From: Coemansia sp. RSA 922
Lineage: Eukaryota; Kickxellomycota; Kickxellomycetes; Kickxellales; Kickxellaceae
Assembly (NCBI GenBank): GCA_027577415.1
Contig: JANBQS010000065.1
Location: 1-41,622, forward strand
Length of the DNA stretch: 41,622 nucleotides
Direction: 5' to 3'
The translations under genes and the position numbers were made by a program. Every line of letters starts with the position of its first letter. Position 1 is the stretch's first letter. A model generated the notes under the pieces. That model worked only from the letters and a program-made list of their open reading frames with translations. It was not told the origin of the DNA and searched no databases. This document shows, one piece after another, positions 14,801 through 24,659 of this stretch.

Positions 14801-15577
14801 TCACTTGAACTTCAAAAACTGAGCAACATCCAAGTCCTTATTCTCCTTAATAGCAGCGGTCAGCTCCGCGAGAAGAGGAACAACGTGGGGAACCTTGGAT
14901 GGATCCAATTCAGGATAATGCTGCTTGATAGCCTGAAAAACAAGCTTAAACAATAGATCATTACCACCCTCATTCAAATGCACACCGTCAAAAGAGAATG
15001 CATCGTAGCCATCCAGCTCACCACCAACCTCCTTGGCCTGGGTTTCGACAGCAGTCCACAGATCGACACATGGCAGAGAATGTCTTTCAGCAATATCACG
15101 TATAACATCAGCGCAGGCCTTGACCGACTCTGGCGTACGTCCAACATAAAGATCACACATGCTACTGTAGAGTTTCTCTCCCAAAGCCGGTGGAGTAATC
15201 AGCAGGATCTTGGTATCAGGCGAATAGTGAGCCGACTGAGGGTCAGTCACCATAGTCACCATACTCTCGATATTTGACTTGTACTCCTCAATAGGGACAT
15301 GCTGCTTGAGCCCAGGAAGAAATGCATCGTTCGATCCCAAAAGGATAGTCAGTAGACGAGGTCTTGGTCCCTTGCTATCAGTAGTGGGAAGTATCTGCGG
15401 TAGAAGCGACAGTGTCCAACGAGAATTATACCCGCCGTAACCGCGGCTAACGACATCCAGCTTGCGTACGTAAGCTTGAGATAGCTGGGCAACCCAGCCA
15501 TTCCTGGAGACATCCCAGCCACGCTGAGTCAGCGAGTCGCCAAAGCATAAAATAGTATCGCAACCAAAGTGAGACAT
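14801..15577 (-). CDS. IAH1: SGNH-hydrolase, isoamyl acetate-hydrolysing esterase-like (copy 1)
   Basis: 258 residues, matching the usual IAH1 size (about 240). SGNH blocks are present: block I CFGDSLTQRGWD with the nucleophilic Ser near residue 14, block II GYGGYNSRW, block III LLGSNDA, and block V DGVHLNEGGN supplying the catalytic Asp and His. The RGW and NSRWTL stretches are typical of the IAH1 subfamily. Known role: cytosolic hydrolysis of acetate esters such as isoamyl acetate. It is a tandem paralogue of the gene at 15980-16747. ATG 15577 was chosen because it aligns with the copy-2 start, and the frame upstream is low-complexity Phe/Leu from an A-rich 5' leader. Both genes share GA-rich and CA-rich leader tracts, so the promoter was duplicated too. 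Confidence 0.88.
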   Translation of the reverse strand: MSHFGCDTILCFGDSLTQRGWDVSRNGWVAQLSQAYVRKLDVVSRGYGGYNSRWTLSLLPQILPTTDSKGPRPRLLTILLGSNDAFLPGLKQHVPIEEYKSNIESMVTMVTDPQSAHYSPDTKILLITPPALGEKLYSSMCDLYVGRTPESVKACADVIRDIAERHSLPCVDLWTAVETQAKEVGGELDGYDAFSFDGVHLNEGGNDLLFKLVFQAIKQHYPELDPSKVPHVVPLLAELTAAIKENKDLDVAQFLKFK

Positions 15578-15858
15578 TGAAAAATAACAAAGTAAAAAAA
15601 AATAAAAATAAAAATTGAAAGTGGCGAGAAGAACGAGAGAGAGAGAGAAAAGGGAGAGGAATAACGCAAACACACACGACTTTGAGAAGAAAAAAACTGT
15701 TGAACGAATACAAAGAAGGAAGAGAAAACACAAAGAACACAAAGAAAAACCAACAAGAAAAAAGAAGAACACAAAGAATACAAAAAAAAAGACTGTAAAA
15801 ACAAAAAGAAAGCAATAGAAAAAAAAAAAAAAAACTAAGTGGTCCTCACTATTATTTT

Positions 15859-15898
15859 CTACGAACGACCAAGGCAGCAGCCAGTGTTTGTAGCAAGC
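15859..15898 (-). pseudogene. Remnant of the DSN1 3' end
   Basis: The 40 bases match the last codons of DSN1 at 17005-17045 (shared tacgaacg, ccaaggcagcagc and agtgtt blocks, same distance and orientation relative to the IAH1 leader) with a few substitutions and one missing base. It has no function as coding sequence. Its value is as a breakpoint marker for the IAH1 duplication. Confidence 0.75.
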
Positions 15899-15979
15899 AA
15901 CTCGCTCTTTAAATATTCGTAAAATATATATATTTATGTTAGAAAAATCTAAAAAAAAACCTATACTTGATAGAGGGTA

Positions 15980-16747
15980 TCACTTGGACAAAAACTGAGC
16001 AATATCCAAGTCCTTATTCTCCGTAATAGCTGCAATCAGATCCGAATGATGAGGAATAACATAGGGCATATTGGAAGGATTCAATTCCGGGTAATGTAAC
16101 TTGATAGTCTGCAAAACAAGCTTGAACAAAAGATCATTACCACCCGCACTCAAATGGATACCGTCGTAAGAGAATTTATCGTATCCATCCAGCTCACCAC
16201 CAATCTCCTTAGCCTGAGTTTCGACAGCAGTCCACAGATCGACACATGGCAGAGAATGTCTTTCAGCAATATCACGCATAACATCGGCGCAGGCCTTGAC
16301 CGACTCTGGAGTACGTCCATCAAAGCCAACACTCTTGTAAAGTTTCTCTCCTAAAGCCGGTGGAGTAATCAACAAGATCTTGGTATCAGGCGAATAGTTA
16401 GCAGACTGAGGGTCAGTCACCATAGTCACCATACTCTCGATATTTGACTTGTACTCCTCAATAGGTACATGATGCACACACCCAGGAAGCATTGCGTCGT
16501 TAGATCCTAAAAGGATCGTCAGTATACGAGGTCTTGCTCCCCCGCTAACAGTAGTTGGAAGTATCCGCGGCAAAAGCGGGAGAGTCCAGCGCGAATTATA
16601 CCCGCTGAAACCACGGTTATCGATGTCCAGCTTGCGTAGGTAGACTTGAGATAGTTGGGAAACCCAACCGTGCTTGGAAACATCCCAGCCATGCTGAGTC
16701 AGCGAGTCGCCAAAGCACACAATAGTATTGTAATCGAGGTTAGACAT
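15980..16747 (-). CDS. IAH1: SGNH-hydrolase, isoamyl acetate-hydrolysing esterase-like (copy 2)
   Basis: 255 residues, with the same SGNH blocks as copy 1: CFGDSLTQHGWD, GFSGYNSRW, LLGSNDA, and DGIHLSAGGN with Asp and His intact. Both copies look catalytically competent. Differences cluster around the lid and active-site rim (RRGWD to QHGWD; FLPGLKQHVP to MLPGCVHHVP; the SSMCDLYVGRTP segment replaced by the shorter KSVGFDGRTP), which may mean shifted substrate preference. It lies directly downstream of DSN1 (stop at 17005) with a 257-bp leader, and since it sits in the original neighbourhood it is probably the parental locus. A long upstream in-frame extension (to 17056) is poly-Phe/Ser low complexity and overlaps DSN1, so ATG 16747 is preferred. 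Confidence 0.88.
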   Translation of the reverse strand: MSNLDYNTIVCFGDSLTQHGWDVSKHGWVSQLSQVYLRKLDIDNRGFSGYNSRWTLPLLPRILPTTVSGGARPRILTILLGSNDAMLPGCVHHVPIEEYKSNIESMVTMVTDPQSANYSPDTKILLITPPALGEKLYKSVGFDGRTPESVKACADVMRDIAERHSLPCVDLWTAVETQAKEIGGELDGYDKFSYDGIHLSAGGNDLLFKLVLQTIKLHYPELNPSNMPYVIPHHSDLIAAITENKDLDIAQFLSK

Positions 16748-16760
16748 TGTAAATTCCGAA

Positions 16761-16783
16761 AAATAAATAAATAAATAAATAAA
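16761..16783 (+). repeat. AAAT tetranucleotide microsatellite
   Basis: About six consecutive aaat/aata units in the 5' leader of IAH1 copy 2. Copy 1 has only irregular A-rich sequence there, so it expanded after the duplication or shrank in copy 1. Confidence 0.85.
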
Positions 16784-17004
16784 GTAGTGAGAGGAAGAAG
16801 GAGCAAGAAGCCAAGAAGGACGAGAGAGAGAGAGAGAGAAAAAAAGGGAGAGGAATGACGCAAACACACACACACAAGACTTTAGCAAAAAAAAAATTGT
16901 TGAAAGAAAAACAAAGAAGGAAAAGAAAAGAAAAAAAACTGTACAAACGAGAAGAATAGCGATAAAAAAAATATAAAAAAAAAAGGTCTTTTTTTTTTTT
17001 TTTT

Positions 17005-18489
17005 CTACGAACGGGCCAAGGCAGCAGCAAGTGTTCGTAGAAGGTCTCGTGTACAATCTTTGTCCTCAACAAGCGCCTTGGGAGGAGTCGTCGCCGCCAA
17101 ATCCTCGTCCTTTGACAGGCCGACATTAGCAACAATGACTTGGGCTTGGGCGCGACGCTGCGTAAAGGCAAAGCTCAGATCAGCAGCCACCCTAGCACAA
17201 GTCTCCGCGGCATGAGCGTGGTCCTGAGCGGCTCGGTGGGCATCAAGGTGGAAGGCATCCAGAGCTATTTCAAGGTCGCTCACAGCTCGGTCGATATGGC
17301 GCTCGGCATCAGCCAACTGCGAATCAATCGCCCCACCACTCGCCGACTCTTGGACGTACTGCAGGGCATCCTCCGATGGCAGGCATTTCCAGCATTCAGC
17401 AGGAGCAGCAACAGAAATAGGCTGAAGCGCCGCCTCCTTGTTGGCGGGCAGTGACTGGACAGACGTGGGCAGACGGGCCAATGCTCGGGCATGCTCGGCA
17501 CCAGCGCGCTTAAGCTCTCGTACCCACGCAGCGTCCTCCTTGCGCAATGTCTCGACACGCGCCAGCAGCCGGTCTCTCGCATCGCGATTGGCAATGTTTT
17601 CAGGGTGGTCAGCCAGGATGGCAGGCTCCTTCTCCAAGGACTCTGCCTGGTCGACAGGACGATGGTACCACGACGTAGCAATGGAGCCCTTTTCGAAAGC
17701 CGAATGCATGTCGTCCACTGCCTCACGCAGGGCATCGTCCAGCACCCGCCGTACTCCAGGCGGCAATTCCTCGGGCCATCCGCCCTGAGCAACATTCGAC
17801 GCAGTACGCCGAGCACACCAGGCCAGCAGCTGGCGCAGGCGAATGGGCTCAGGCAGCTCGGGCGAGATGTGCCTATAAAAGTCGCCAGCAGCCACAGAGT
17901 CGTGAGGAGTAGCCTTGAATCCCCCGCCTATCGACGACGCGCGCTTGCCCCGCATTGAAAACGTCGACCGCCGACGACCGCCCAGCGTCGACTTGCGAGT
18001 AGCTGTCCGAGCAACAGGCCTCATACGCGACGACACGCCAGAATCAGCTCCAGCTGCTGCTGCTGCTGTCGCTCGACGCCGCCCATTAGTCGCTGCCGCC
18101 GTTGGAGTTGAAGGCTGAATAACACGCGTACGCGTACGTGAGATAAGCGGGGTCGGCTGAGGAGCCTTTTTCACTGGCACACTAAGCTCCTGTACAACAA
18201 CGGCTTTAGGCGACGTAGTAGCCGCTATCCGCCGCTTGGGCTCGGGAAAGTCGAGTCTTGGCGATGACTCTGAAGACGCCTGCCGCTTGCTACCTGTCGT
18301 CTCATCGCCGCCATTAATCACTGGCTTGTTCTCGTTATTGTTGCTAGTAAGAGTCGCTTGCGCAATTGCTGCTTTGTTAGAAGAGCGTACTCGCGTAAAC
18401 TTAAACCCATGGTCGTTTCCTTGTTTAATATCCGCGCCTGCCATATTGAAAGGTGCTTGAGAAAGTGCTGTACTAGTAGAGCCACGCAT
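17005..18489 (-). CDS. DSN1: Kinetochore protein Dsn1/Mis13 (Mis12/MIND complex)
   Basis: An intronless protein of 494 residues. The N-terminal ~200 are disordered, basic and Ser/Thr-rich with Arg-Arg clusters (GGRRRSTFSMRGKRASS near 170-190), resembling the Aurora B-regulated region of Dsn1. The Mis12-Mtw1/Dsn1 domain starts near residue 202 with DFYRHISPELPEPIRLRQLLAWC, the family's hallmark, followed by long helices (to ~494) that would coil with Nsl1/Mis12. Known role: bridges inner centromere proteins (CENP-C) to the KNL1 and Ndc80 complexes. ATG 18489 is the first in frame; 6 to 7 further Met lie downstream. The last codons were copied into the IAH1 duplication. The call is from the domain block; overall similarity of this family is low, so the N-terminal boundary is less sure. 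Confidence 0.82.
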   Translation of the reverse strand: MRGSTSTALSQAPFNMAGADIKQGNDHGFKFTRVRSSNKAAIAQATLTSNNNENKPVINGGDETTGSKRQASSESSPRLDFPEPKRRIAATTSPKAVVVQELSVPVKKAPQPTPLISRTRTRVIQPSTPTAAATNGRRRATAAAAAGADSGVSSRMRPVARTATRKSTLGGRRRSTFSMRGKRASSIGGGFKATPHDSVAAGDFYRHISPELPEPIRLRQLLAWCARRTASNVAQGGWPEELPPGVRRVLDDALREAVDDMHSAFEKGSIATSWYHRPVDQAESLEKEPAILADHPENIANRDARDRLLARVETLRKEDAAWVRELKRAGAEHARALARLPTSVQSLPANKEAALQPISVAAPAECWKCLPSEDALQYVQESASGGAIDSQLADAERHIDRAVSDLEIALDAFHLDAHRAAQDHAHAAETCARVAADLSFAFTQRRAQAQVIVANVGLSKDEDLAATTPPKALVEDKDCTRDLLRTLAAALARS

Positions 18490-18779
18490 ATAAAATAATA
18501 AAAGAGATTAAAGCGAATTGAACTGATTATTAAAAGAGATTAAAGCAGCACAATAATACAAAAAAAATAAAATATTAAAAAAGGGTTTTTCAAAAAAAGG
18601 GGAAAAAAAAATAGAGAAAAAGAGGGAGTGGATTGAAAACGCGTTTCCTATCATTTTCTTTTTTTTTTTCTTGTTTACGTTTTCTCTCTCGGCTCGGACA
18701 CTTGATGCGGCTCGACTCGACAGCGAGCCGTAGTGTATTTAATAATAGTGACAACTTGATTGATATAAAAGACTAGGTT
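18490..18779. other. Intergenic, AT-rich
   Basis: DSN1 upstream region and UBC12 3' flank. It contains a duplicated 'aaaagagattaaagc' motif (about 18499-18548) and an A-rich tract. No gene seen. Confidence 0.5.
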
Positions 18780-19647: not shown

Positions 19648-22600
19648 ATGAGTGGCGGAAAATACGGACAACTCGTGGTTATCTCTCGCTCTGGCGCCGA
19701 TGGCAAGGCGTTTCCCATGCACACAACAAGGGTGCTGATAGGCAGGCAAGTACATAATAAAAAATATATAGTTTGGTGTGTCTACAAAGTTTGTAAATTT
19801 GCTTACTCAATCTGTCCCCCTTTTTTATATAGGAATGAGACGTGCGATATTCGAATGCAGCGAGCTCATGTGTCAAAGGAGCACTGTGTGATTCGTGTAG
19901 TTGACAATGAGGTACAGTATATATACATTTGCTGTTTACAATAAGAAAACAAGAAACAGAATACTAACTTGCCTTTTTATAAATGTAGGTTGTGCTAAAG
20001 AACCTCAGCGAAAACTGTACGTCAGTCAATACCCAAGTATTGGAGGCTGGTCACCAGCGGGTATTAAAGTCTGGTGACGTGATTACAATAGTAGGGCGGT
20101 CCCTGCGCTACGAAGAGAATAAGGGCGAGACTACTACTACGCCCCAGGGGCCTTCTAGGGCGCCTACTGCTCCACAGACAGTTGCCGTAACTAACGGCGG
20201 CGCTGGAGGAGGAGTAGGAGGGCGTCAACCCGTGGTGTTTGCGTCGGGTAGCAGGGCTGATGGGCAGCCGCAGAGACAGCCGCAGAGGCAGCTGCAGAGG
20301 AAGCTTAGCCGCACGCCGCGGAACCCCGAAACAGCGCGCAAGCTGAAGCTGTGGGACGCGCACTATTCGGGCAATAGGAATGCCGAGACTACTTCTGATG
20401 ACATCTTTGCCGAGTCCCCGCCCTCCGGCCTCCTCGACACTAGTCAACGACTGTTGGCTGAGTCCGACGACCCCTTTGCCGCCTCGAACACGCATGAGGA
20501 AGGAGCCTTTGAGCGTATGGCGCAGAGCGTCGGTCGTGGGTCAGAAGTGAGGCGTGATCCTGAGGTGGCTGCGGAAGTTAAACGGATCATGGGCCAGATT
20601 AACCAGATGGCTGGTCATAATAATAGTCCCTCGCGTTTGACGACGCCACTGCAGTCCGGCCGCAAGAGGCCGCGCTCGTCGACTGATGCGGTCGGTGGTG
20701 AGCGTAAGCGGTCTCGATCGCTTGAGCGAGAGCAGCAGCAGCTGGCATCAGCTTCTCAGCGCCAGCTGTATCCGCCTCTTATTCCACAAAAGTCTAGTGT
20801 GGGAGCGGCTTATGGCTCTGAAGACGAAACGTCGCGAGTCACTGTGGGAGTCAGTCCGCAGTCGACGTACAATCGGTCTCCTACGCTACAGCGCCAGCGC
20901 CAAGGAGAAGGAGGCTCGCAGTCCGTCGTGGTTCAAAGATCAAAGCCTATCCAGCGAGCCGGTTCTACCACTATTGCAAAGACGCCTGAGCTGCATAGGA
21001 CTACGGCTCGGTTTTTTTCGAGCCTGCCCCGACCCATCAACGGCTCGTCGTCAGTAGTTGGTCGTCGCGCGGCCAGCAACGGCAGTCCGACGCCATCAGC
21101 TCGTATGTCGTCGCCGTTGAAGCGCACGCTGTCTAGTAACAGCAACTGCGAGAGTGTTATTCGGCCGCCCATTATGCCTCTTCGGCCGGTTGCAGCTGAT
21201 GACGAGAGCGAGGAGGTGCCTACGGAGCCAGAGCCCGAGTCGGAATCTGATGCAGAGCCTATTTCTGTAGTGACGCCTGAGAATAGGGCTGCTGGAAGGC
21301 CGTTGCTTTTGGCGCAAGAGTCGATGGCTCGCAAGTCTGTGCGGTTCGGTCCGGCGCTGAGTCCCGAGGTGTTTGATGAGAGCGCGCCTCCGTCGACGCC
21401 CCTGAGGCGTGGTACTCCTATGCAGCTGCCGGCTCGTGCATCGAGTATTCTGCGCAGGACGTCGCCGACTCGGCCCCAGCCGGTATCGCCTTCGCTGTTG
21501 CGTAGTCTGTTGACTCCTCGCCCAACGCGTCGCCAGGCCATGCACCAGTATATTGCTAGTCTGTCGGCGCTCGCAGAGAGCCCCTTGGCTGTTGACCAGC
21601 CGCCACGGGCAGCAGCTGCGGTCGAGCCAGTCGAGGAAGCAAGTGTTGGAGTGCCCAAGGAAACACTGCCTGTTGTCGGTATTGAACCGGCGGCACCTGT
21701 TGAACCACTGGTCGACATTGAGCCGGTGACAACTCAAGAACCAGTGGTTGACATTGAATCAGCGACAGTGTTGGGTGCTAGTCCCGCAGACCGTCGTCAA
21801 CGCAGACGCCGTAGCGTCAGACTAGCCACCAACCACCAGCAACGCCGAGTGACCTTGGACAGCCCACTGCGAGTCCCATTGCAAAAGGACAGTCCGTCTT
21901 CTTCATCGCCTTCGTTGCTTATCGTGAAGCGAACGACCCAGAGCCACCCTTACCTGGACTCGCCTACCAAGCGCCCACCGACTATGTCGATAAGCGCTCA
22001 GCGTAGGGAGCGTCGTCGTACTGCGCCGATCATTGGCAGTAGTGATTTTAGCGCGTCGATGGCGCAAATGGCTGCTGCGCTGGGCGAGGATGTGCCCACA
22101 CTCTTTACAAAGAAAATGCCGGCTGCTGCTGTTGAAAAGGTCGTTGACGATCCTGTGGTGATCGCACCTGAGGACGATGCCACTGCGGTGGAGGAGCCAG
22201 AAGTCGCGCCGCTTGGACTAGCCGACGCTATGCAGCAGGAGCAGCAGGCCGAGGACGATAGTGAGGCCAACACCGTGGTCGAAGAAACTTCCGTATCGCC
22301 GGCATCGAACGTTGTATTGCTCGAGCAGGCTGAAAGGCAGGCCCGGATTCAGGGCACTTCGCCCGAGTCTAGCTTTGTAGTTGGGGACAGCCTCTCGCTG
22401 GGAGTATCGACCAAACTGGCGGGACTCTCTGTGACTACTCCGCCGCCAACGCCCATTGCGCTCAGCAGCTCTGCGAGTCGAAAGCACCGTCGCCAGACTA
22501 TCGCCGATTTCGCACCCATTGCCGAGGTGGAGGAGCTGAGCAGTGTTGATGAGATTTTGGCCCACAGACAGCGGCTCAAGCGGATACAGGACCGCAAGCG

Positions 22601-23612
22601 CCGTCGCCAGACTGTAGCTGACCTTAATAAACGTCGCTCGTCGTGGCGCGGCTGGATGCCCACTGCCAATCCGCTTGTCGACTCGCCGCCCTCATCACCT
22701 GAGGCTCATCACGTGGCTGATTGGTCAAAGCCTACTGACAACGCTTCTTTTCTTGTGTCTCCTCCTCCTCCTCCAGCTTTGAATACTCTTATGTATCCGC
22801 CTACTGCTTGGAACACTGAAGAAGAGGGAGAGTCGCCTACTAAGCGTCGCCGTCGTATGCGTGGAATTACTGAAATTGTCGGTGCAGTCTTGGGTATTAA
22901 CACAAAGCCTGCTAGTATTGAATTGGCTAACGACCCGAAACATGGAACCCGCGAGGTAGCACCAGTTACCGAGACCAAGGACTTTGCTTACCCGCCGAGG
23001 CCCGTACCTATTGATGCGGATTGGGAGAAGATTGACATGGATAATGGCGACTTTGATAATGGCGAGGAGCGATTGGCCAAAGAGGAAATAACAACTGCGG
23101 AGGAACCAGTCGCTGAGGCCTCACAGCAAGTCGAGTTGTATGCTGTTAGTGGTCCTGCTTCGGATGTTGATAGCGCCAGCTTGTTTAGCGCGCATCTCCC
23201 CACCGAACAAGAACACGAACAAGCACCGGCTGCTGTCGAAGAGCCAGTCGTTAGCACTGTGCTTTCGCCGCCGACTACGCGTGGCAGAGCTAGCCGTGGT
23301 CAACGTCAGACATCAGAGTCTGCATCACCACCACCACCCAGCACTACGGCTGCTACCAGGCGTACTACTATCCGACCGCCTCCACCTCCTTCTACTCGTC
23401 GCCGTGCCCCAACAACCCCTACTACTACTACTGCTGTGCCAACGACTATGACGAGGAAGCGCAGGGCCGAGGACCCTGCCCCAACAACACCGGCACCCAT
23501 CAAACGTGGGCGTGGTCGACCACCAACCAATGGTATTCGGAAGACACCCGAGCCTAGTGTCATGTCACCACCTGCTACCAGGGCTTCAAAGAAAAAGTCC
23601 CATGCATCATAA
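19648..23612 (+). CDS. Ki-67-like FHA protein with PP1-binding module and AT-hook
   Basis: Three exons, 19648-19745, 19833-19911 and 19989-23612, give 1266 residues. Intron 1 (87 nt) is GC-AG: AG|GCAAGT...TATAG|GAATGAG; the nearby GT donor gives an immediate stop. Intron 2 (77 nt) is GT-AG. Residues ~7-105 form an FHA domain (IGRNETCDIR, VSKEHC, LKSGDVITIVGRSLRYEE) with a closer match in wording to the FHA of vertebrate Ki-67 (GDVITI.DRSFRYE) than to generic FHA proteins. At ~508-533, SVRFGPALSPEVFDE plus a PPSTPLRRG block matches the RVxF-x-FD PP1-binding module shared by Ki-67 and RepoMan. Two RRQT(I/V)AD repeats lie near 890 and 928, and RGRGRPP near 1232 is an AT-hook. The rest is disordered, SP/TP-rich and basic at the C-terminus. 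Human Ki-67's long repeats are absent. Inferred role: mitotic chromosome-associated PP1 scaffold. Confidence 0.8.
19746..19832 (+). other. GC-AG intron inside the FHA domain
   Basis: Donor AG|GCAAGT is the textbook consensus of the rare GC-AG class, with the acceptor after a pyrimidine run (cccccttttttatatag). Only this junction keeps the IGR-NET FHA block in frame. Confidence 0.8.
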
Positions 23613-24155
23613 CACTATCATTTTTTTTTATAGTAGGTCGATCCGGATTAATTCCCCCCTACAATACCATCTATTAAAATACCTTTTCTTTTTTATCTTG
23701 GCACATACACCCCCCGAAATTGCATGACTAAAATATACAAGGCGGACTTGGATTGGGGAAAAAGGGGGGATGCATGTTTAAATTGCAAAAAATATGTCGA
23801 TCATCAATGGTGTCCGGAATAGCGAGGAGCATATAGTATTCCCTTTTTGTTACAAAGAGAGTCTCGCCCCCTTATCCCCCTTTTTCTTATTATGTGTAAT
23901 ACACTCATCCACTCACTCTCGCTATGTCGCTCCATCTTACTCTTCGATTTTTGCTATATTCGGAAAGAGCTGCCAAAAGATAATCCGGTATTTTTTCTTC
24001 TTTTTCACTAGTTGCCTGTTTTTTTTTTCTTTCTTATCCATTCTCCCCCCACTTTTTTTTTTTTTTTAAAAAAACAAGGACCTCTTCATTTTCTTTTATT
24101 CTTTCTCTTTTCTTTTATTTAATTTTTTTTATTTCTTTCTCCGCATCACGATATA
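23613..24155. other. Intergenic, T/C-rich
   Basis: Ki-67-like 3' flank and upstream region of the LOR-like gene. A long pyrimidine-rich stretch (about 23985-24145) precedes the ATG at 24156, a common fungal core-promoter feature. No RNA or protein gene recognised. Confidence 0.45.
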
Positions 24156-24659
24156 ATGTCTGCTTCGTTTACATACGTTAAAGAGTCTTTTATTTTTAAC
24201 AAAAAGACACTAGTCTATCATGGATTACTAGAAAGTAGTTCACAAGCCGCAGACCTAGAGCCAGTTTGGTCAATGCATTTGGGAGATAACATTGCGTCGT
24301 TAAACACTGGTCGTAACGGAGCCGTTATAATGACCGCAACAATAGACCGCGTACGGAAGGACCAAGCACAATTTACTTATCAGGGCAAGATGACTAATGG
24401 CGGATTTGATGCAGCAAAATCAACATGGGCGTTTTACGATTTTGACGGCAAGCGATATGACTGGATGGCTGGTATAATGCAAAACTGTTGGAAATTAGAA
24501 GATTCTGAAGGACACGTTGTTGCTCAGTATATCGGTATGTCTCGCGATTATAAAGTTAAAGCTACTCTTTCTTTTCAGACTAAAGTCAGCGAATCTCTTA
24601 TTTCTCTTGTTCTTTTGACTACTAAACTTATCAATTATGATGAAGCTTCAAAGCGTTAG
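24156..24659 (+). CDS. Small protein, possibly tubby/LURP-one-related (LOR-like) fold
   Basis: 167 residues, no intron, no signal peptide. The centre reads as alternating beta strands: FYDFDGKRYDWMAG, then WKLEDSEGHVVAQY, then YKVKATLSFQTKVSESLISLVLLTTKLI. The sequence (basic/aromatic strand ending in W, 'W.L.D..G.VVA', then a final helix of the form 'S..LI.L.LLTT.L') is what LOR/tubby C-terminal-like small fungal proteins (e.g. DUF6593-type) look like. Members of this fold are thought to bind phospholipid or membranes, but few are studied. The assignment is inference from pattern only, and the N-terminal 60 residues are not covered. It converges on SPP2, with 17 bp between the stops. Confidence 0.5.
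   Translation: MSASFTYVKESFIFNKKTLVYHGLLESSSQAADLEPVWSMHLGDNIASLNTGRNGAVIMTATIDRVRKDQAQFTYQGKMTNGGFDAAKSTWAFYDFDGKRYDWMAGIMQNCWKLEDSEGHVVAQYIGMSRDYKVKATLSFQTKVSESLISLVLLTTKLINYDEASKR

Follow-up and report, generated by a model that had tools for sequence, protein, structure and literature searches.

Introduction

The proteins that most resemble the one described here are Ki-67 (MKI67) of animals, Repo-Man (CDCA2), and bridgin (Bgi1) of basidiomycete fungi. Ki-67 and Repo-Man regulate protein phosphatase 1 (PP1), and were, in 2016, the only two PP1 regulators in which the docking segment called KiR had been described (PMC5005033). The species given for Ki-67 with its PP1 region in an alignment legend of 2014 are all animals, reaching as far as Hydra and Trichoplax (PMC4032110). 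Bridgin of Cryptococcus, an FHA protein of 1295 residues, resides at outer kinetochores and peaks there in anaphase; it binds chromatin through a basic tail, for which that of Ki-67 can stand in, and the table of its pull-downs includes PP1 (PMC7794384). Its authors considered Ki-67, in 2021, to be the metazoan homologue of bridgin, and noted relatives in other fungi (PMC7794384); others occur in Amoebozoa (PMC9252888). Here we describe a gene of Coemansia sp. RSA 922, a member of the Kickxellomycotina, that joins a Ki-67-type FHA domain to a KiR-like PP1-docking module. It lies in a stretch of 41,622 nucleotides (contig JANBQS010000065.1, positions 1 to 41,622 of the forward strand; assembly GCA_027577415.1), which we refer to, whole, as 'the window'.

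A Ki-67-like FHA protein in a fungus is not new: bridgin is one, and NCBI already labels some relatives of the present protein this way. A KiR-like PP1 module outside animals is new as far as our searches show; in the open-access literature, surveyed mainly by titles and the openings of abstracts, we found no description of the module in a fungus. The initial annotation of this stretch called the product a Ki-67-like chromosome scaffold. Its FHA domain is indeed of the Ki-67 type and its PP1 module of the Repo-Man/Ki-67 type, but the novelty is narrower than was supposed, bridgin having been published already as a Ki-67 relative. Because Ki-67 repeats were not found in it, we class the protein, from its sequence, as a repeat-free relative of Ki-67 and not as Ki-67 proper.

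The FHA head

When the FHA part is compared with the PDB, human Ki-67 comes first (3.1e-20 and 3.8e-20), followed at a distance by a bacterial protein (3.9e-4), MDC1 (9.7e-4) and Rad53 (1.3e-3). The human Ki-67 FHA is 48% identical to that of the window over 95 residues. The Pfam FHA match covers residues 29–93 with 53.6 bits (cut-off 20.7), and the Yop-YscD_cpl family matches the same stretch with 39.4 bits (cut-off 33.2). The reverse comparison scored the human Ki-67 FHA against the window protein, against 11 relatives and against 12 FHA matches from elsewhere in this genome. These 12 come from an exon-wise Pfam search, which misses any domain interrupted by an intron, as that of the window protein is. 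At 74.7 bits the window protein ranks first; none of the 12 other FHAs exceeds 23.2 bits, and one, L008, gave no reported match. Forward and reverse comparisons thus both choose Ki-67 over other FHA proteins, as the initial annotation had proposed. A profile of the FHA made from human Ki-67, the window protein and nine relatives gave at least 112.5 bits to 12 family rows, ten of which had gone into the profile, and 46.9 bits to the best other FHA.

The fold points the same way. A model predicted for the relative P0013 from an alignment of 23 rows has a mean pLDDT of only 51, with 487 of its 757 residues below 50, but its FHA part (blocks at 50–94) adopts an FHA fold. In a Foldseek search of the PDB with this model, two Ki-67 FHA entries lead (1.1e-5 and 2.2e-5) and a third match is close behind (6.4e-5). 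VIA-align left the FHA families tied and did not separate them.

Four FHA trees were built: one with untrimmed flanks, whose branch lengths were absurd, and three trimmed to about 100 columns (101 of 162 in one). Rows L009, L012, L013, P0010 and P0016 were omitted from the untrimmed tree, and L008, L012, L013 and L014 from the first trimmed tree; of the other two, one lacks L005 and the other P0010 and P0016. Human Ki-67 adjoins or falls within the Kickxellales rows in all four, in company with L005 where that row is included. L005, an FHA from this genome that sits on a long branch, groups with human Ki-67 in three trees (96/92, 90/84 and 93/86). In the tree without it, Ki-67 joins the Kickxellales rows at 83/85; the one-clade test without L005 gave an approximately unbiased P value (p-AU) of 0.29.

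The PP1-docking module

The initial annotation staked its case on a match of the family PF15276 at about residues 508–533, and the match is there (Table 1). Compared with the PDB, the PP1 part finds Repo-Man (4e-8 and 4.9e-8) and Ki-67 (6e-6) and no other match up to E = 1, and so stands nearer Repo-Man than Ki-67. The published module consists of RVxF, PhiPhi (EV/EL) and KiR, FDxxLP(P/A)N(T/S)PL(R/K)(R/K)Gx(T/S)P (PMC5005033); that of the window reads ARKSVRFGPALSPEVFDESAPPSTPLRRGTPM, and is followed six residues later by SSILRR. Two kinases inhibit PP1 docking, Aurora B at the x of RVxF and Cdk1 at three positions of Repo-Man, and phosphorylation at the equivalent positions of Repo-Man/Ki-67 blocks or weakens PP1 binding (PMC5005033). 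Removal of KiR from Repo-Man makes binding about fivefold weaker (PMC5005033). In our reading of the alignment, S517, T529 and T535 fall on the three Cdk1 positions of Repo-Man. In human Ki-67 (5j28), R-P replaces the first of these. The presence of this first Cdk position in Coemansia suggests that the fungal module is the fuller, Repo-Man type.

The SILR motif may add a further point of contact. In the Ki-67–PP1 complex, the peptide forms a hairpin that runs outward from the RVxF pocket and back (PMC5005033), and in inhibitor-3 six residues without density join SILK and RVxF. From the hairpin and this short linker, it appears geometrically possible for SILR, placed after KiR, to contact the SILK pocket of PP1. 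Those portions of the literature on PP1 regulators that we consulted mention no RVxF–KiR–SILK arrangement.

Conservation was assessed over 36 Kickxellales rows, partial models among them: the window, 33 from Coemansia, 1 from Linderina and 1 unnamed. Because the queries used to retrieve these rows included the module, its presence in them is partly a matter of selection; detail within it is not. VRFG occurs in all 36, S/T before its V in 34, SPE[VL]F in 35, [ST]P after PP in 35, RG[ST]P in 34 and [GS]IL[RK] in 35. RG[ST]P is absent from P0023 and P0035, the second of which ends after FD and hence lacks [GS]IL[RK] too. SILR lies 8 to 14 residues downstream of RGT. A relaxed KiR pattern fits 32 of the rows, and the strict published pattern none.

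Three protein searches supplied the relatives: 28 proteins at E ≤ 0.001 (the 7990 candidates sharing most words being scored), 18 at E ≤ 0.001 (135 candidates), and 32 at E ≤ 1 (768 candidates of about 440–1400 residues). The nearest database protein, from Coemansia sp. S17, is 99% identical over 94% of the region searched, and 11 of 28 relatives carry the NCBI label 'antigen identified by monoclonal antibody Ki-67'. Beyond rows of the Kickxellales type, the searches gave three environmental proteins and two monotreme Repo-Mans (E 0.013 and 0.054); retrieval by words and within length limits makes the absence of other fungi or animals uninformative. In one relative, P0030 of Coemansia sp. RSA 990, precomputed Pfam lists PF08766 at the C-terminus beside FHA and PP1_bind, reflecting either a fusion or an error of the model.

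The environmental proteins, P0036, P0037 and P0038, match PF15276 at 1.7e-8, 3.4e-9 and 1.9e-10, respectively, and their module reads KSVSFGPALSPEVFN..(L/M)PP(S/N)TPVK. It is followed by some 12–14 units, mostly spaced 21 residues apart and each with TP(L/I/V)R or K, and then by an arginine-rich end. Part of this array also matches COMPASS-Shg1, above the cut-off in P0037 only. No FHA was found in the sequences as given, in which upstream exons are not visible. If these proteins are relatives of Ki-67, repeat arrays with Cdk-type sites arose more than once.

Gene structure and other features

The initial annotation placed the start codon, the stop codon and both PP1 strings (residues 509 and 526) correctly (Table 1). 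The GC donor of intron 1 was chosen because it restores IGR-NETCDIRMQ, the FHA core of the relatives; the alternative, a GT four bases further on joined to the same acceptor, leads to a stop after one extra codon. For several close relatives the database model is missing a portion of the FHA (P0001 begins inside it, P0008 omits its centre), as would be expected if annotation pipelines overlook the GC donor.

Table 1. Features of the Ki-67-like gene and its protein (nucleotide positions are those of the window)
Feature	Residues	Positions	Strand	Evidence or detail
Three-exon gene	1266-residue protein	19648-23612	+	Start codon at 19648; stop codon ends at 23612
Exon 1, ATG to first part of FHA		19648..19745	+	
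Intron 1, GC-AG		19746..19832	+	AG/GCAAGT...TATAG/GAATG (slash, splice point)
Exon 2, FHA core NETCDIRMQ...VSKEHC		19833..19911	+	
Intron 2, GT-AG		19912..19988	+	
Exon 3, remaining protein and stop		19989..23612	+	
Ki-67-type FHA domain	1-106	19648..20129 (introns included)	+	Pfam 3e-14; human Ki-67 1r21 3.1e-20
PP1_bind PF15276 match	507-545	21330..21446	+	9.3e-13, 48.6 bits (cut-off 27)
RVxF motif (K)SVRFG, including Aurora-like S509	509-513	21336..21350	+	
KiR-SLiM equivalent (F521, D522, T529-P, T535-P); S517-P just upstream	521-536	21372..21419	+	Alignment with Repo-Man 5ioh and Ki-67 5j28; motif per PMC5005033
SILK-like motif SILR	545-548	21444..21455	+	[GS]IL[RK] in 35/36 Kickxellales rows
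Conserved basic helix with R/K-x-S/T sites (AHRQRLKR...RRSSWRGW)	917-948	22560..22655	+	Long basic helix 541-574 in P0013 model
Basic tail	1171-1266	23322..23609	+	Isoelectric point 12.0, net charge +17
AT-hook KRGRGRP	1231-1237	23502..23522	+	

Outside the FHA and the PP1 module, the charge of the protein alternates: residues 107–505 are basic, 547–860 acidic, 861–1000 basic, 1001–1170 acidic, and 1171–1266 strongly basic. SP/TP sites number 38 in all, 7 of them of the form [ST]Px[KR]. The basic helix has the pattern QTVAxLxxRRSSW in 28 of the 36 rows, the other eight being models of 452–801 residues, five of them marked partial; RRRTAP-type blocks and ALGEDxP blocks each occur in 29. At E ≤ 1, neither these blocks nor the helix receives a Pfam name in the window protein. 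An AT-hook, also noted at the outset, is present in the tail, but it is not a feature of the family as a whole: RGRP is found in only 13 of the 36 rows.

The signature repeats of Ki-67, which in that protein lie in a single large exon, were said to be missing, and they appear to be. There is no KI67R (PF08065) match in the window protein at E ≤ 1, and none in the seven relatives scanned; at E ≤ 0.001 KI67R was not found in the genome either, in a search that had no positive control. Comparison of the protein with itself revealed no long repeat array; only the P/T-rich tail and a short stretch at 620–652 gave more than six shuffles did.

Genome copies and neighbouring genes

PF15276 occurs at two places in the 20.4-Mb assembly (E ≤ 0.001), in this gene and in a second copy on contig C175; the two stretches of DNA are 94.65% identical over about 10 kb. 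Between the proteins, 37 of 1263 aligned codons are changed, and the ratio of non-synonymous to synonymous divergence (dN/dS) is 0.145 overall. Codons 501–550, which contain the PP1 module, have none of 50 residues changed at a dS of 0.105. None of 106 is changed in the FHA part, with a dS there of only 0.013, which makes this little informative, and in the tail dN/dS is 0.605 over 95 codons. The gene is maintained as a protein. Near-identical pairs of genes occur likewise on C7/C41, C733/C205 and C103/C497 as well as on C65 (the window's contig) and C175, the one pair for which DNA divergence was measured (about 5%); the paired contigs represent a heterozygous, hybrid or mixed assembly.

A PP1 catalytic gene on contig C364 reads, as we interpret it, VRGSRPGK across a splice junction, giving an arginine at the isoform-choice position, and retains positions that we take to be R74, Y78 and Q294, the numbers being assigned by comparison with human PP1. 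In the Ki-67 and Repo-Man complexes, KiR contacts R74, Y78 and Q294, and R20 governs the choice of isoform, favouring Ki-67/Repo-Man in animals (PMC5005033). These residues permit, but do not prove, an interaction in Coemansia, and may be common to fungal PP1.

Two genes away from the Ki-67-like gene, and separated from it by a gene for a ubiquitin-conjugating enzyme, is one for the outer-kinetochore subunit Dsn1/Mis13 (17005–18507, minus strand; PF08202, 1.6e-29). On C175, a second Dsn1/Mis13 gene lies beside the second copy in the same order. The proximity is probably coincidental, though bridgin works with that complex. A downstream gene (24123–24659, plus strand) has a weak DUF6593 match below the cut-off; the model P0024 from Coemansia thaxteri joins it to the Ki-67-like protein, which points to a conserved neighbourhood and a faulty model. 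Two adjacent GDSL lipase genes (14801–17065, minus strand) are a tandem duplicate; each cross-matches, with a DNA identity of about 84%, the C175 copy of its neighbour.

Function and evolution

We consider it likely that the protein is a repeat-free FHA scaffold of the Ki-67/bridgin line that recruits PP1 at mitotic exit, on chromatin or at kinetochores; 'chromosome scaffold' is likewise a predicted role. Such a protein might work as follows. The FHA head would read a phosphothreonine partner. In early mitosis, Cdk1, acting at S517, T529 and T535, and an Aurora-type kinase, acting at S509, would keep the PP1 module closed. Loss of these marks in anaphase would allow the module to clamp PP1, in a grip perhaps extended by the downstream SILR, and the basic tail would hold the complex on DNA, where PP1 could undo phosphorylation acquired in mitosis, either on chromatin or at the kinetochore. 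The FHA trees limit this reading, in so far as their deep branches are weak and they do not prove strict orthology with Ki-67; because of this weakness at depth, assignment to Ki-67 rests on the pairwise and profile scores.

The protein could instead be, in function, a bridgin: a linker of outer kinetochore and centromeric chromatin. The KMN network would recruit it through its FHA together with the spacer, PP1 would be carried as cargo, and the protein would do nothing at the periphery of chromosomes. This possibility, which overlaps the reading just given, we regard as a serious one that falls somewhat short of an even chance. Bgi1 of Cryptococcus has the same order of parts (N-terminal FHA, unstructured middle and basic tail), with its anaphase peak at kinetochores, PP1 in its pull-downs and Ki67 named as its metazoan homologue (PMC7794384). 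CENP-C was found in the Coemansia genome and no match to CENP-T_C, a weak negative since genes were searched exon by exon. That the main role belongs to interphase, with PP1 targeted to heterochromatin or the nucleolus and mitotic control secondary, we think unlikely: Repo-Man/PP1 does regulate interphase heterochromatin (PMC5241828), and Ki-67 is described as binding HP1, but the conserved SP/TP and basic S/T sites within the docking module are of the kind used for a mitotic switch. Convergence, in which an unrelated fungal FHA protein gained a PP1 motif resembling KiR, is very improbable. In its favour, a linear motif may evolve more than once, the genome has 12 matches to the common FHA domain, and FHA trees are weakly resolved; but two independent segments indicate the same family, about 50 bits separate Ki-67 from the next FHA proteins, and the module match spans about 40 residues, more than one short motif.

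If the protein is indeed a repeat-free PP1 scaffold of the Ki-67/bridgin line, what it implies for origins is this. Bridgin and its relatives in fungi and Amoebozoa, the PP1 region of animal Ki-67, and the Coemansia module, taken together, are most simply accounted for by an ancestral scaffold with both FHA and PP1 docking, and suggest that a chromosome-associated phosphatase scaffold is older than the animal–fungus split. A fuller scheme, which we offer tentatively and judge to be not far from evenly balanced, is that animals and fungi inherited from their common ancestor a single scaffold with a Ki-67-type FHA and a complete phospho-switch of the Repo-Man type. Ki-67 would have gained repeats; Repo-Man would be a headless offshoot that kept the switch; bridgin would be a descendant specialized for the kinetochore; and in the Kickxellales docking would have been extended to an RVxF–KiR–SILK clamp. 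KiR on a Ki-67-type FHA in a fungal phylum would place the PP1-scaffold function before the split, apart from the repeats of vertebrates, and would offer a single-gene system in which to study the ancestral role, whether chromosome coating, kinetochore bracing, or delivery of PP1 at mitotic exit.

Comparison with known systems

With Ki-67 the Coemansia protein shares an N-terminal FHA of the same subtype, RVxF–PhiPhi–KiR in mid-protein, a long spacer of low confidence, and a basic C-terminus. It differs in that no Ki-67 repeats were found in it, in having SILR and an AT-hook in addition, and in being less than half as long as the human protein (3256 residues; PMC5005033). Repo-Man is the top PDB match of its module, which it resembles in LSPEVFDES, then TPLR, G and TP, and in all three Cdk-type positions; P0039 and P0040, the Repo-Mans at hand, are listed in precomputed Pfam with PF15276 only and no FHA, whereas the Coemansia protein has one. 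Among SILK regulators, inhibitor-2 and inhibitor-3 likewise have a [GS]IL[RK]-type motif close to RVxF, but in inhibitor-3, as far as the published account consulted goes, SILK precedes RVxF, to which it is joined by a short linker, whereas SILR of Coemansia, a putative docking motif, follows the KiR segment. Bridgin, compared from its published description, is alike in its FHA head, unstructured middle, basic chromatin-binding tail, length (about 1300 residues) and PP1 in pull-downs; the portions of that description consulted report only an unconventional, putative PP1 site and 13 bridgin-motif repeats, whereas the Coemansia protein has a KiR-like module and shows no long repeat array in the self-comparison.

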